Shown here: in pieces, positions 17,801 to 56,329 of the stretch
Numbering within the stretch: position 1 is the first letter of the stretch
How the letters are laid out: every line of letters begins with the position of its first letter
Source of the DNA: Desulfovibrio sp. A2
Lineage (GTDB): Bacteria; Desulfobacterota; Desulfovibrionia; Desulfovibrionales; Desulfovibrionaceae
Direction of reading: 5' to 3'
NCBI RefSeq assembly: GCF_000226255.1
Contig: NZ_AGFG01000061.1
Location: 194,046 to 258,045 of the forward strand
DNA: 64,000 nt
Made by a program: the position numbers and the translations under genes
Notes under the pieces: model-generated
Told to the model about the DNA's origin: nothing
Seen by the model: only the letters and a program-made list of their open reading frames with translations
Databases searched by the model: none

Positions 17801-17947
17801 CGCCAACGCACCATCCGCAGGGGAGGCCACCGGTGCGCCGGAATTTCATTCGTTTTTTCTGGCATGTTTATCTTGGTTTTTTATGGTTCATGATTGTGCG
17901 TAGTGGTTGTCATTGGTTTTTGAAGGTTTGTTTGCGGAACGAGAAGT

Positions 17948-18006
17948 GTCAATCCTTGTGCACGTTTTCCTCTTGTTTCGTGACTGTTATGGCTGCTAGG
18001 ATTGAC
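17948..18006 (+). promoter_or_regulatory. Leader of tupABC with TunR-like site and long inverted repeat
   Basis: CACGTTTT-N8-TTCGTG sits at 17961-17982 (full site about 17958-17985). It is the same core and spacing as the operator between the TSUP transporter and tunR. It lies inside an inverted repeat with perfect 9-bp arms, GTCAATCCT (17948-17956) and AGGATTGAC (17998-18006). TAGGAT at 17997-18002 could be a -10 box, with the TunR-like site over the -35 region, an arrangement that suits an activator. The 120 bases upstream are strikingly AT-rich for this genome. TunR binding is inferred. Confidence 0.7.
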
Positions 18007-18061: not shown

Positions 18062-18883
18062 ATGCGTCGTCTGCTTCTCGTGTTGTGCCTGTTCACCGTG
18101 TTGCTGCCCGCGCAGTCCATGGCAGCGGACAAGGTGCTGATGATGGCCACCACCACCAGCACCGCCGATACCGGCCTGCTCGACGACCTCGCCCCCGCCT
18201 TCCAGAAGGAGACGGGCATCGAGCTCAAGTTCACGGCCACCGGAACCGGCAAGGCGCTGGAAATGGGCCGCAGCTGCAACGTGGACGTGCTGCTGGTGCA
18301 CGACCCCGAGGCCGAGGCCAGGTTCGTGGGTGACGGCTTCGGCATCAACCGCGTCCAGCTGATGTACAACGATTTCGTCATGGTGGGTCCCAAGGCCGAT
18401 CCGGCGAGCATCAAGGGCAAGACCGTGGCCGAGGCCATGAAGGCCCTGTCCGGCGGCAAGGCCCCGTTCATCAGCCGCGGCGACAAGTCCGGCACCCATG
18501 CCCTGGAACTGCGCCTGTGGAAGGACACCGGCGTGGGCGTGCCCGAAGGCAAGGAATGGTACGTCGAAGCCGGGCAGGGCATGATGCGCACCATCGCCAT
18601 GTGCGCGGAAAAGGGCGGCTACACCCTTACCGACCGGGGCACCTGGATCAAGTACGAGGCTGGCCTGAAGGAACCCGGCCCGCTGGCCATCGTGGTGGAA
18701 AAGGACCAGAAGCTGTTCAACCAGTACAGCTCCATCACCGTGAACCCGGCCAAGTGCCCCTCGGCCAAGGCCGACCTGGCCGACGCCTTCACCAAGTGGA
18801 TGGCCAGCCCTTCCACCCAGAAGCGCATCGCCGACTTCAAGCTGATGGAAAAGCCGCTGTTCACGCCCAACGCGGGCAAGTAG
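18062..18883 (+). CDS. tupA: Tungstate ABC transporter, periplasmic binding protein
   Basis: A 273-residue secreted protein with a signal peptide at 1-21 (cleavage near SMA-A). The oxyanion motif T30-T-T-S33-T-A-D-T-G-L-L, the SRGDKSGTHALELRLW segment (with the Arg that contacts the anion in this family) and the G-K-E-W-Y motif mark TupA rather than ModA. It binds tungstate for uptake; tungsten feeds formate dehydrogenases in these organisms. The start was set at the ATG after GGAGGATGCC, because an upstream in-frame ATG would bury the signal peptide. TupB and TupC follow. Confidence 0.93.
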   Translation: MRRLLLVLCLFTVLLPAQSMAADKVLMMATTTSTADTGLLDDLAPAFQKETGIELKFTATGTGKALEMGRSCNVDVLLVHDPEAEARFVGDGFGINRVQLMYNDFVMVGPKADPASIKGKTVAEAMKALSGGKAPFISRGDKSGTHALELRLWKDTGVGVPEGKEWYVEAGQGMMRTIAMCAEKGGYTLTDRGTWIKYEAGLKEPGPLAIVVEKDQKLFNQYSSITVNPAKCPSAKADLADAFTKWMASPSTQKRIADFKLMEKPLFTPNAGK

Positions 18884-19058: not shown

Positions 19059-19754
19059 ATGGACTACCTGCTCGACGGCCTCGTCACCGCCCTGCGCCTG
19101 CTGGCCATGGGCGACGCCGAAACCTTCTCCGCCGTTTGGATAACCCTCGCGGCGTCGGGAATGTCCATCGCCGCGTGCTTGGCCATCGGCGCGCCGCTGG
19201 GATTCCTGATCGGCTACCACGACTTTCCCGGCCGCAAGGCGGTGCGCATCGCCGTGGATACGGCTCTGTGCTTCCCCACCGTGGTCATCGGCCTGCTGGT
19301 GTACCTGTTGCTGTCGCGGCAGGGGCCGATGGGCGAACTGGGGTTGCTGTTCACCATTCCCGGCATGGCCATCGGCCTGACGTTGCTGGGGGTGCCCATC
19401 GTCATGGCCATGACCGCGCTGGCCGTGGAGCAGGCCGACGCGCGCCTGCGCCTGACCCTGCTCACCCTGGGGGCCGACGGGCGGCAGATGCTTACGGCCA
19501 CGTTGTGGGAAACCCGCTACCACCTGATGCTGGCGGGGGTGGCGGCCTTCGGGCGCATCGTCTCAGAGGTGGGTATTTCCATGATGGTGGGGGGCAACAT
19601 CAAGTGGCACACCCGCACCATCACCACGGCCATCGCGCTGGAAACGGGCAAGGGCGACTATGCCCTCGGCATCGCCCTGGGGCTGGTGCTGCTGGCCATG
19701 GCCCTGCTGCTGAACCTGATGCTGGCGGCGCTGCGCAGGAGGGCCGGACGATGA
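19059..19754 (+). CDS. tupB: Tungstate ABC transporter, permease
   Basis: A 231-residue inner-membrane permease with about five or six helices. It carries the ABC coupling-loop signature (ADGRQMLTATLWETRYHLMLAGVAAFGRIVSEVG, around residue 145-175, with the E-A-A-like loop). It forms the membrane channel of the tungstate importer. The start is the ATG at MDYLLDGLV after AAGGAGACGG; a longer in-frame ATG 39 bases upstream lacks a ribosome site. Its stop overlaps the tupC start by 4 bases (ATGA). Confidence 0.92.
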   Translation: MDYLLDGLVTALRLLAMGDAETFSAVWITLAASGMSIAACLAIGAPLGFLIGYHDFPGRKAVRIAVDTALCFPTVVIGLLVYLLLSRQGPMGELGLLFTIPGMAIGLTLLGVPIVMAMTALAVEQADARLRLTLLTLGADGRQMLTATLWETRYHLMLAGVAAFGRIVSEVGISMMVGGNIKWHTRTITTAIALETGKGDYALGIALGLVLLAMALLLNLMLAALRRRAGR

Positions 19755-20479
19755 CCGGCCGCGACTCCGGCGCTTCCCCGGCGCTGCCCCTGGACTCCGC
19801 CGACGCGCCGTGCGCCCGCTGCGCCGTTCCCCTGTATTCGCTGGAAGGCGTGGTGCGTCGCCATGGCGAACGCGCCGTGCTCGAGGTGCCCCGGCTGGAC
19901 ATTGCCGCCGGGGGCATCACCGGCGTGGTGGGCCCCAACGGCGGCGGCAAGTCCACCCTGCTGCGCCTGCTGGCCCTGCTGGACGCGCCCAGCCAGGGCG
20001 TGCTGCGCTTTGCGGGCGAGGCGGTGGGACCTCTGTCCGCCGCGCGGACGGCCGAGTTGCGCCGTTCGGTCACCCTGCTGCTGCAGGAACCCTACCTGCT
20101 GCGCCGCAGCGTGTACGAAAACGTGGCCTTCGGCCTGTCCGTGCGCGGCATGCGCCATGCGCAGGACGCCGTGCGCGGGGCGCTGGAACTGGTGGCCCTG
20201 GATCCGGACGTGTTCCAGCGCCGCCGCTGGTTCGAACTTTCCGGCGGCGAGGCCCAGCGCGTGGCCCTGGCCGCACGGCTGGCCTTTTCGCCGCGCGTGC
20301 TGCTGATGGACGAACCCACGGCCAGCCTGGACGAAGACAGCGCGGCCCGCATCGCCGACGCGGCCCGCGCCGTGGCCGGGCGCGGCACCACGGTCATCGT
20401 GGTCTCGCATGACCGCGACTGGCTGGAACCTTTGGCGGGCCGCATCCTGAAGGTGCGGCGGGGGCAGGTGGAAGGATAG
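19751..20479 (+). CDS. tupC: Tungstate ABC transporter, ATPase
   Basis: A 242-residue ATPase. Walker A is GPNGGGKST at 61-69, with a Q-loop in LLLQEPYLL, the signature SGGEAQR, Walker B VLLMDEP followed by TASLDED, and the switch His in VVSHDRDW. The first 28 residues are a Cys- and Pro-bearing extension before the usual start of the fold. It drives TupB and is translationally coupled to it by the ATGA overlap. No regulatory Mop domain is fused at the C-terminus, so regulation is likely left to TunR. Confidence 0.93.
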   Translation: MTGRDSGASPALPLDSADAPCARCAVPLYSLEGVVRRHGERAVLEVPRLDIAAGGITGVVGPNGGGKSTLLRLLALLDAPSQGVLRFAGEAVGPLSAARTAELRRSVTLLLQEPYLLRRSVYENVAFGLSVRGMRHAQDAVRGALELVALDPDVFQRRRWFELSGGEAQRVALAARLAFSPRVLLMDEPTASLDEDSAARIADAARAVAGRGTTVIVVSHDRDWLEPLAGRILKVRRGQVEG

Positions 20480-53908: not shown

Positions 53909-54862
53909 CTACCTGAAAAACTCCACCACGTACTTCCCCGCCGTGAACAGCAGGATGCAGCACAGCATCCACTTGATCAGGTTTGCGGGCACATGCTTCT
54001 GGCAGCGCGCGCCCAGGTACATGCCCGCCATGCCGCCAATGCCCAGCAGCAGGCCCAACATCCAGTCCGGGGCCACGGACATGTGCGGGTACAGCGGCGC
54101 GATGGCCATGTAAAAGGTGACGCCCGCCACAGAGGTGACGAAGGTGCCCATAAGGGCCGCGCCCGCCACGGTGTATACCGGCAGCCCGAAGAACGAGACG
54201 AAGAACGGCGCGATTATGGCCCCGCCGCCAATGCCGTACACCCCGCCCACGATCCCCACGATGAAGCTCAGGGTAAAGATGCCCACGGTGCGGAAGCTGT
54301 AGGTTTCGCCGTAGAAGCTGTACGAGATGCGCGACAGGCAGCATTCGTTCATGCACACGGCGGGCAGATCGTCGGGGTTCTTGCCTTCCGCCGCCGCCTT
54401 TTCGCGGTGGGTGCGCACCAGCGAGCGGAACTTTTCCTCCGCCGTGGCCTTTCCGTTGCCCGCCTTCTTCTTGGTGAGGTCGCGCACCATGCGCAGGGCG
54501 ATGTAGGCCAGCACGCACGCGGCGAACAGCTTGAAGTCGCGCGCGTCCGGCAGGTACGTCACCCGCACGAAGGCCCCTATCAGCACCCCCGGCAGCGTGC
54601 CGATGATCACCACCCACGTCAGCGGCCAGACCATGCGCCCTTCGCGGATGTAGCGGTACACCCCGCTGGGAATGGCCACCACGTTGTAGAACTGGTTGGT
54701 GGCGCTGACGGAAGGGTTCACGTAGCCCAGGAAGGACATCTGGAAGGGCAGCAGCAGGAACGCGCCCGACACGCCCCCCATGGACATGAAGAATGACACC
54801 ACGAACGCCACCAGCGGCGGTATCCACGGTTCCGTGTGTATGCCTGCGACGGGGAAGTACAT
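53909..54862 (-). CDS. TSUP (TauE/SafE) family anion exporter
   Basis: A 317-residue inner-membrane protein with about eight hydrophobic helices in two halves. Half 1 has VAFVVSFFMSMGGVSGAFLLLPFQ and NPSVSATNQFYNVVAIPSG; half 2 has FIVGIVGGVYGIGGGAIIAPFFVS and PVYTVAGAALMGTFVTSVAG. A cytoplasmic loop (about 120-165, KKK-rich) separates them, with a CMNECC patch. The family moves sulfonates, sulfite or other oxyanions. Divergent from a TunR-like regulator with an operator between, it fits the TSUP class that TunR represses, and so likely exports tungstate or molybdate. The ATG follows GGAGGTCGCC. Confidence 0.88.
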   Translation of the reverse strand: MYFPVAGIHTEPWIPPLVAFVVSFFMSMGGVSGAFLLLPFQMSFLGYVNPSVSATNQFYNVVAIPSGVYRYIREGRMVWPLTWVVIIGTLPGVLIGAFVRVTYLPDARDFKLFAACVLAYIALRMVRDLTKKKAGNGKATAEEKFRSLVRTHREKAAAEGKNPDDLPAVCMNECCLSRISYSFYGETYSFRTVGIFTLSFIVGIVGGVYGIGGGAIIAPFFVSFFGLPVYTVAGAALMGTFVTSVAGVTFYMAIAPLYPHMSVAPDWMLGLLLGIGGMAGMYLGARCQKHVPANLIKWMLCCILLFTAGKYVVEFFR

Positions 54863-54944
54863 GGCGACCTCCTGATGTGAGGGGGGGGGGCCGGACGGGG
54901 CTGACTCGGCAAGGGCGTCGCCTGTTTTTTGTCTGGCCGGCTGC

Positions 54945-54972
54945 TGACACGTTTTTTATAATCTTCGTGTCA
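54945..54972. promoter_or_regulatory. TunR-like operator in the TSUP-tunR gap
   Basis: A perfect inverted repeat, TGACACG / CGTGTCA, with a 14-base spacer (28 bp in all), core CACGTTTT-N8-TTCGTG. A TATAAA -10-like box for the TSUP gene lies within the spacer on the minus strand, so binding here should block its transcription. It is about 270 bases before the tunR start. The size and twofold layout resemble recombinase (dif-like) sites, as expected for a recombinase-derived regulator. Confidence 0.75.
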
Positions 54973-55003
54973 ATGAAAAGATAGCGCATCGGAAAACCGT
55001 TGT

Positions 55004-55025
55004 CACGGATTATTTCATTTTCATG
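55004..55025. promoter_or_regulatory. Degenerate second TunR-like site near tunR
   Basis: CACG-N14-CATG with TT before CATG, one base off the operator core and with GATT instead of TTTT after CACG. It could serve autoregulation, but is weak evidence alone. Confidence 0.3.
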
Positions 55026-55240
55026 TCCGTGCGCGGCCTGAAACACGGCTTTGATTTTCGCGCGTCTGCGCCTATATGATAGGAATTCGGGCAATGGCCG
55101 GGGACAATGGCCGGGAACAAGGGCGGCTCGGCCGCGCGGATTCCGGCCCCGCCTTCCTGCATGGCGGGCCGCGAACAGGCACGCCGCCGGGCGCGCATGC
55201 CGCCCCCGGCCCCCACGCGCACGCAACCAACGGGACACCC

Positions 55241-56329
55241 ATGCGACAGGACGACAGCCTCGAACGAATCTGGGAAGCGCTGGCCGAAAACGTGTCGGAA
55301 CGCCGTCACAACCCGGCGGGCATGCTCTCCATTCCCGACGACGTGAAGTATCTGGACACGGTGGAACTGGCCCGGCTGGAAGAAGCCTTCCGCCTGTGGG
55401 CCGCCCGTCCGGCGCGGGGCGACGTGCGCCGTTCGCGCCTGCGCATGCTGCTGGTGTTCCTGCTCATCCGCCACACCGGGGCGCGCCTGGGCGAGGTGCT
55501 GGCCCTGGCCCCCGCCCGCGACATCGACGCGGCGCGCGGCGTGGCGTACCTTGGCGAACCGCCCCGCGAGGTGCAGTTGCCGCCCGATCTCGCCGCCCAG
55601 CTTTCAGACCTGCTGGACGAGGCCGTGGCGGGCGAGGGCGAACACCCCTTTGCCGTGGATCAGGCCCACGTGCGCCGCAAGTTCTACGAGCGCGCCCACG
55701 AATGCGACCTGGCCCCGGACCTGGCCAACCCCAGCGCCCTGCGCCGTTCGCGGGCCATCGAACTGTTGCGATCCGGCCTGCCGCTGCCGGTGGTGCAGCG
55801 TCTGCTGGGCCATTCCACGGCCAGCCTGACGGCGGCCTACATCGACGTTTCAAACGAGGACATGCAGCGCATGGTGGGCCACGCGCTGGACCGCGAGCAG
55901 CGCCGCCGCACCAGCGCGCGCAACGCCTTCTACGGGCGTATCGCGGCGGTGGTGCGCGGCGACGTGCAGTCGGTGGTTTCGGTGCAGACGCCGTCCGGCA
56001 TCCGGGTGGCCTCTGTCATCACCAACGACAGCCTGGACAACCTGGGCCTGCGGCCCGGCGTGTTCGCCGCGGCGGAGGTGAAGGCCCCCTGGGTGGTGCT
56101 GACCGTGGGCAGCGAGGCCCCGTCGTCCACGGCGGGCAACGTGTACCCGGCCACCATCGTCAAAGTGGTGGTGGGCGCGGCCACTGCGGAAGCCGTGGCG
56201 CGGCTGTCGGACGGCACCGAGATATGCTCGGTGCTCACGGCTGACCGGGTGCGCGCGCTGGATCTTTCCGTGGGCACCCCGGTGTGGGTGCTGATCAACG
56301 TGTTCTCGGTCATCCTGAACGTGAGCTGA
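55241..56329 (+). CDS. tunR: TunR-type tungstate-responsive regulator (recombinase fold plus two Mop domains)
   Basis: A 362-residue protein. Residues 40-210 match the catalytic half of XerC/XerD tyrosine recombinases: R82 in RHTGARLGEVLAL, SALRRS (165-170), LLGHS (H191) and Y200 in LTAAYIDVS. The first active-site His of H-x-x-R is Ser165 here, so DNA cleavage is unlikely. Residues about 228-290 and 300-362 are tandem Mop/TOBE domains, the molybdate/tungstate-sensing part of ModE. This architecture is the published TunR family. The start was set at MRQDDSLERIW; a further-upstream ATG gives a low-complexity extension. Divergent from the TSUP gene. Confidence 0.88.
   Translation: MRQDDSLERIWEALAENVSERRHNPAGMLSIPDDVKYLDTVELARLEEAFRLWAARPARGDVRRSRLRMLLVFLLIRHTGARLGEVLALAPARDIDAARGVAYLGEPPREVQLPPDLAAQLSDLLDEAVAGEGEHPFAVDQAHVRRKFYERAHECDLAPDLANPSALRRSRAIELLRSGLPLPVVQRLLGHSTASLTAAYIDVSNEDMQRMVGHALDREQRRRTSARNAFYGRIAAVVRGDVQSVVSVQTPSGIRVASVITNDSLDNLGLRPGVFAAAEVKAPWVVLTVGSEAPSSTAGNVYPATIVKVVVGAATAEAVARLSDGTEICSVLTADRVRALDLSVGTPVWVLINVFSVILNVS

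Follow-up and report, generated by a model that had tools for sequence, protein, structure and literature searches.

Tungstate uptake genes and a putative anion exporter gene lie far apart in the 64,000-nucleotide window (the whole stretch of DNA analysed here), and the initial annotation had recognized one sequence core, with the layout CACGTTTT-N8-TTCGTG, near both and assigned them to one regulator. This raises the question of whether the two transport systems do share an operator type, which protein would read it before tupABC, and whether its binding would turn uptake on or off. The features of the tup region are as follows.

17946..17963, + strand: GTGTCAATCCTTGTGCAC, a further conserved element that overlaps the dyad's left arm (genus alignment)
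17957..17986, + strand: TunR-type dyad before tupA, with its 22-bp core at 17961-17982 (exact core, genus conservation, alignment)
17961-17982, + strand: the tup core, CACGTTTTCCTCTTGTTTCGTG, upstream of tupA and within the initially annotated 17958-17985
17973..17978, + strand: TTGTTT, possible weak -35 within the dyad, with an 18-bp spacing to the -10 (read from the sequence)
17994..18002, + strand: TGCTAGGAT, possible extended -10; TGCTA in 8/8 genus genomes, the others reading TGCTAACAN
18062..18883, + strand: tupA, tungstate-binding protein (best NCBIfam match TupA, 325 bits, cut-off 400; PBP_like_2)
19059..19754, + strand: tupB, permease (best NCBIfam match TupB, 261 bits, cut-off 320)
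19751..20479, + strand: tupC, ATPase (ABC_tran; TupC second-best NCBIfam match, 136 bits, cut-off 400, FtsE scoring slightly higher)

A rare core before tupABC and its conservation

A search of the 4,148,832-base draft genome, with the motif read backwards as control, yielded two exact core matches, both inside the window at 17961-17982 and 54948-54969, and none in the control. All fixed positions thus agree between the two places, the separation of ~37 kb given earlier was measured as 37.0 kb, and the objection that such a motif may occur elsewhere at random was not borne out. Allowing one mismatch added a single place (C20:11985), while allowing two added 20 places versus 15 control matches at ≤2 mismatches, so by these counts the exact pair stands above background and the two-mismatch matches do not. 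A looser motif, CACS-N12-TTCRTGNC, had 50 matches in the genome versus 9 in the control, and five of the 50 are sites discussed here.

Eight Nitratidesulfovibrio genomes, including that of the window, were then compared at ≤1 mismatch (control 0). The tup core was exact in 8/8 and the core at the TSUP gene in 7/8, with one mismatch in the eighth (G038). In the genus alignment, 26 of 30 columns of the tup dyad were invariant versus 32/91 in the upstream flank and 22/43 downstream of the -10, so that, of the parts of the tup upstream region measured, the dyad is the most strongly conserved; the conserved block extends past it, with GTGYCAATCCTTRTGCAC to the left and TGCTA to the right. The dyad is an inverted repeat, CACG-N14-CGTG, and its 22-bp CAC-N16-GTG layout is identical to that of the repeats beside tunR genes. 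Among the best 80 of 322 loci, tupA relatives at 98% identity include those of N. liaohensis XJ01 and N. oxamicus NCIMB 9442, which assigns the genome to Nitratidesulfovibrio.

The one-mismatch copy, CACGTGTTCCCTAATGTTCGTG, lies at C20:11985-12006 (L028 6986-7007), 55 bp upstream of the ATG start codon of a chemoreceptor gene encoding Cache, HAMP and MCP signal domains, which would be a candidate metal-linked chemoreceptor if TunR acts there. These 22 bp are identical in 7/8 genus genomes while the upstream flank varies, and in the genus search at ≤1 mismatch the site was not found in the fragmented genome G124; five of the seven copies read TCACG-N14-CGTGA. The family-matrix score was 8.4 in the own genome and 13.7 in G100, comparable to the tup site.

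The TSUP/tunR1 locus and the TunR proteins

The second exact core is located between a transporter gene and a divergent regulator gene, where the following features were mapped.

53909..54862, - strand: TSUP/TauE family transporter, putative anion exporter (PF01925 TauE)
54944..54973, + strand: site B, TunR-type dyad, shortly past the possible -10 of TSUP
54948-54969, + strand: core of site B, the second exact core CACGTTTTTTATAATCTTCGTG, between the TauE/TSUP gene and the TunR gene
54978..55006, - strand: promoter-like GTGACA-17-TATCTT for TSUP (consensus scan, 9/12)
55000..55029, + strand: site C, a further TunR-type dyad covering the possible -35 of TSUP; core 55004-55025
55051..55080, + strand: promoter-like TTGATT-18-TATGAT for tunR1 (consensus scan, 9/12)
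55241..56329, + strand: tunR1, Xer-like tyrosine-recombinase domain and tandem TOBE/Mop domains (domain matches)

Site B starts 5 bp past the possible TSUP -10 and site C, present in 8/8 genus genomes, encloses the possible -35, which is a repressor layout as far as the predicted promoter goes. The two sites are 56 bp apart, and a spacing of 55-56 bp recurred in all four TSUP-linked loci with two scored sites, three g29 loci being among the 55-56-bp cases; four g26 loci with neither TSUP nor mod in the fetched stretch had 54 bp, and where other TunR loci had two or three sites, the spacing was between 41 and 94 bp.

The product of 55241-56329 matched Pfam Phage_integrase (42 bits, cut-off 27.1) and TOBE (79 bits, two stretches), and its positions 223-361 matched ModG/ModE chains in the PDB, the ModE chains at E ~1e-11; we take this Xer-like domain plus tandem TOBE/Mop to be the architecture of TunR. 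A second TunR (TunR2, 42% identity), also with a Phage_integrase domain, is encoded on contig 27 between modA and modBC; tunR1 is linked to a transporter through the divergent TauE gene at 53909-54862, and its paralog adjoins modA/modBC. A further gene, encoded on the modA strand, separates modA from tunR2 (L027, 6055-6900 region). Across the family, TunR searching gave a match in 138/149 genomes at E 0.001 or better, a count that includes Mop-domain-only matches.

The Phage_integrase domain is held in common with the XerC/XerD tyrosine recombinases, from which the TunR proteins differ in their catalytic residues. Among 66 TunR proteins, taken from loci of the 138 genomes with a match and not including the other seven TunR1 copies of the genus, none has His at the HxxR position and 30 keep the Tyr, while the second Arg is present in 66/66; TunR1 combines Ser at the His position with Tyr, and TunR2 Arg with Tyr. 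On these counts, an Xer-type recombination site was rejected. ModE resembles TunR1 in the sensor half with its tandem TOBE/Mop, whereas the DNA-binding half of TunR is Xer-like and not the ModE helix-turn-helix. The closest likeness in genes and sites is to the TunR regulons of sulfate reducers that Kazakov et al. (2013, J Bacteriol 195:4466) reportedly described, with TSUP-linked and mod-linked targets as two classes; protein architecture and dyads at both classes are the same, but here tupABC has a dyad as well.

TunR-type dyads across the family

A divergent TSUP gene was found beside 26 of the 66 TunR genes studied, and a CAC-N16-GTG dyad upstream of tunR in 25 of these 26 loci (L084 missed), so the core is the form that a general dyad, GTCACG-N14-CGTGAC, takes in the genus. 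The dyad matrix was built from 18 non-genus sites, 17 of them from TSUP-linked tunR loci, and its finding at those 17 is circular because the same loci built it; of the nine TSUP-linked loci not used for the matrix, the dyad was found in eight, that of the window among them.

Using this matrix without genus sites, we scored 99 tupA upstream regions from the 115 genomes with tupA matches, the rest being partial or more distant. Seventeen exceeded the 99% level of shuffled sequences (6.6; ~1 expected) and eight the 99.9% level (12.3). The 17 comprise all eight of the genus, 2/3 of g29, 3/6 of g40, 2/2 of g41, 1/7 of g30 and 1/1 of g27; TunR control of tup is therefore not general in the family, as 82/99 upstreams fail the 99% level. 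The tup site of the window itself scored 8.0, between the two levels, versus 28.7 for site B, which counts against its being a TunR operator as judged by matrix likeness; most genus tup copies scored 12.1. In g29 (three genomes) the dyad lies 65-87 bp from the ATG, after a possible -10, versus 104-118 bp in the genus.

Gene neighbourhood gives a further view of the TunR-tup linkage. Among the named tupA loci, the best 80 of 322, ten have a TunR-like gene near tupA, upstream in nine (two Desulfovibrio piger, five labelled Mailhella, an uncultured Desulfovibrionaceae and an uncultured Desulfovibrio) and ~1.6 kb downstream in Desulfovibrio sp. An276; the gap to tupA is 70 bp in L055 and 93 bp in L110. 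Phage_integrase stayed below the Pfam cut-off of 27.1 in L055 (25.9) and L299 (24.8), TOBE passing. Within 260 bp upstream of these genes, the CAC-N16-GTG dyad was found at 0/11 tup-linked loci (L296, L298, L299, L302, L305, L309, L314, L318, L323, L055 and L110), so they back the linkage by neighbourhood only and their proteins may read another motif; the D. piger upstream carries GGTCACC...CGTGACA with a much longer spacing than the 22-bp dyad. Several genomes of other genera resemble the window in having tupA and a TunR gene on one contig, ~27-58 kb apart (G026:C20, G025:C1, G143:C2, G097:C73 and G133:C5).

As to the paralog, dyads stand before modA/tunR2 and modB in 6/6 and 7/7, respectively, of the loci that hold the region; with the family matrix, several mod-linked loci yielded weak matches or none. 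The right half of the tup site shares 12/15 bases with the modA site versus 7/15 with the TSUP site, the left half 8/15 with the TSUP site versus 5/15 with the modA site, and over 30 bases 17 agree with the modA site and 15 with the TSUP site. Class-specific matrices placed the tup site 2.4 bits toward the mod type, which is inside the leave-one-out ranges of both classes, the mod-class sites being the best match per locus by the family matrix, a choice biased toward the family motif. In g40, the best TunR match adjoins modA in three genomes that carry a tup dyad (G040, G068 and G114). The proposal that one regulator serves uptake and exporter therefore divides: a rare, conserved TunR-type dyad does stand before tupABC, with the same type at TunR/TSUP pairs, but a single regulator as worded is not supported because a second TunR with its own dyads is encoded beside modA/modBC, and the tup site is as close to the modA site as to the TSUP site.

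Proposed regulation of tupABC and its meaning

TTGTTT, the possible -35, falls inside the tup dyad, whose centre is ~25 bp upstream of the -10. Of the TAGGAT promoter that the site had been said to overlie, the -35 within the dyad and TAGGAT itself at 17997-18002 are there to be read, but the seven other genus genomes have TAACA(C/A/T) at this place and TGCTA alone is common to all eight. Scanning with the sigma-70 consensus detected no such promoter at tup, at modA or at modB; it detected one promoter-like match each for TSUP and tunR1. The pattern is consistent with import promoters that depend on an activator and an export promoter under repression, but a missing consensus match carries little weight in a GC-rich genome. 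Activation of tupABC is favoured on indirect evidence, namely the dyad over a possible -35 and the lack of sigma-70-like promoters at the import genes. Our main reading, held at slightly better than even odds (a probability of about 0.52), is that 17957-17986 is an operator of the TunR family, through which tupABC would be turned on under tungstate scarcity.

Mechanistically, a TunR protein would bind the tup dyad, and the acting paralog may be TunR1 (by TSUP), TunR2 (by modABC) or both. In D. vulgaris, TunR reportedly activates modABC, less so with tungstate, with the tungstate-free form binding; by analogy, tungstate-free TunR would be the binding form here too. Seated over the weak -35 beside the extended -10, it could recruit RNA polymerase at tupABC, and at sites B and C it would keep TSUP off. 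If the metal-free form does bind, import would therefore be on and export off under starvation, and tungstate would free TunR from the DNA, closing import and opening export.

The same operator could also repress tupABC from over the -35, in the way that E. coli modABC is repressed by ModE. The dyad does cover the possible -35, and in the three g29 genomes it sits closer to the gene, past a possible -10, both of which would suit a repressor; but tungstate-free binding, as reported for D. vulgaris TunR, would then stop import during starvation, and the scan found no good sigma-70 promoter at tup that would need repressing, so that we consider repression rather unlikely. Chance, or a recombination site of an Xer-like enzyme, would be suggested by the tyrosine-recombinase fold of TunR, but is highly improbable given a core that stays exact in 8/8 genomes amid variable flanks and the catalytic residue counts given above.

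Alternatively, the conserved tup block may belong to another regulator such as TaoR, its likeness to the TunR dyad being partial or incidental. According to an excerpt of PMC10102598, DVU3193 is the regulator of tupABC in D. vulgaris Hildenborough, after Rajeev et al. 2019, and an excerpt of PMC11980592, citing the same work, gives TaoR HTH and PBP-like domains. TaoR/DVU3193, as there described, acts on tupABC in the same bacterial group and differs from TunR (Xer-like plus TOBE) in being of the HTH_17 plus PBP_like type, and a protein of this domain type is encoded in the own genome (L230 1030-2034). GTG[CTA]CA, overlapping the left arm of the dyad, occurs upstream of tupA in 34/99 genomes (null mean 11.3, maximum 24), and we infer that 17946-17963 may be a TaoR element of a composite promoter; this partial membership of the left arm in another conserved element counts against the TunR operator, as far as the alignment can tell. 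However, the likely TaoR element overlaps the dyad on the left only, conservation extends to the right arm and the 22-bp spacing, which recur at TSUP/tunR and mod loci, and the exact core is at no genome position other than the tup and TSUP/tunR sites and therefore absent from the aor-type genes of this genome. A block belonging wholly to another regulator thus appears unlikely. By eye, TTGACATAGTAAGGC was seen in two genus aor upstreams (L236 and L238) and one g10 tupA upstream (L057), making it a candidate TaoR element on sight; it was not seen in the aor upstream of the own genome (L234).

Returning to an activating TunR-family operator at 17957-17986, the overlap with the left element could make tup a composite promoter used by both TunR and TaoR. 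A wider and quite doubtful extension is that in Nitratidesulfovibrio one recombinase-derived operator code, with two TunR paralogs, governs tupABC, molybdate import by modA/modBC, TSUP, tunR and the chemoreceptor gene, with a synapse-like TunR tetramer bridging the TSUP/tunR dyads. Transport and swimming would then both be tuned to tungstate, and a tetramer across dyads 55-56 bp apart would lock the exporter promoter, such bridging being a relic of recombinase synapsis turned switch. The literature searched, with the TunR and TaoR regulon tables outside its coverage, contained no report of TunR acting at tup.

If TunR does act before tupABC, tungstate import and anion export would be governed by one operator type, whose readers descend from site-specific recombinases, and TunR and TaoR, tungstate regulators unrelated to each other, would both control tupABC from sites that overlap. 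The specificity of the TunR paralogs would be addressable on defined promoters within one genome, and the cell would match its tungsten uptake to the tungsten supply.
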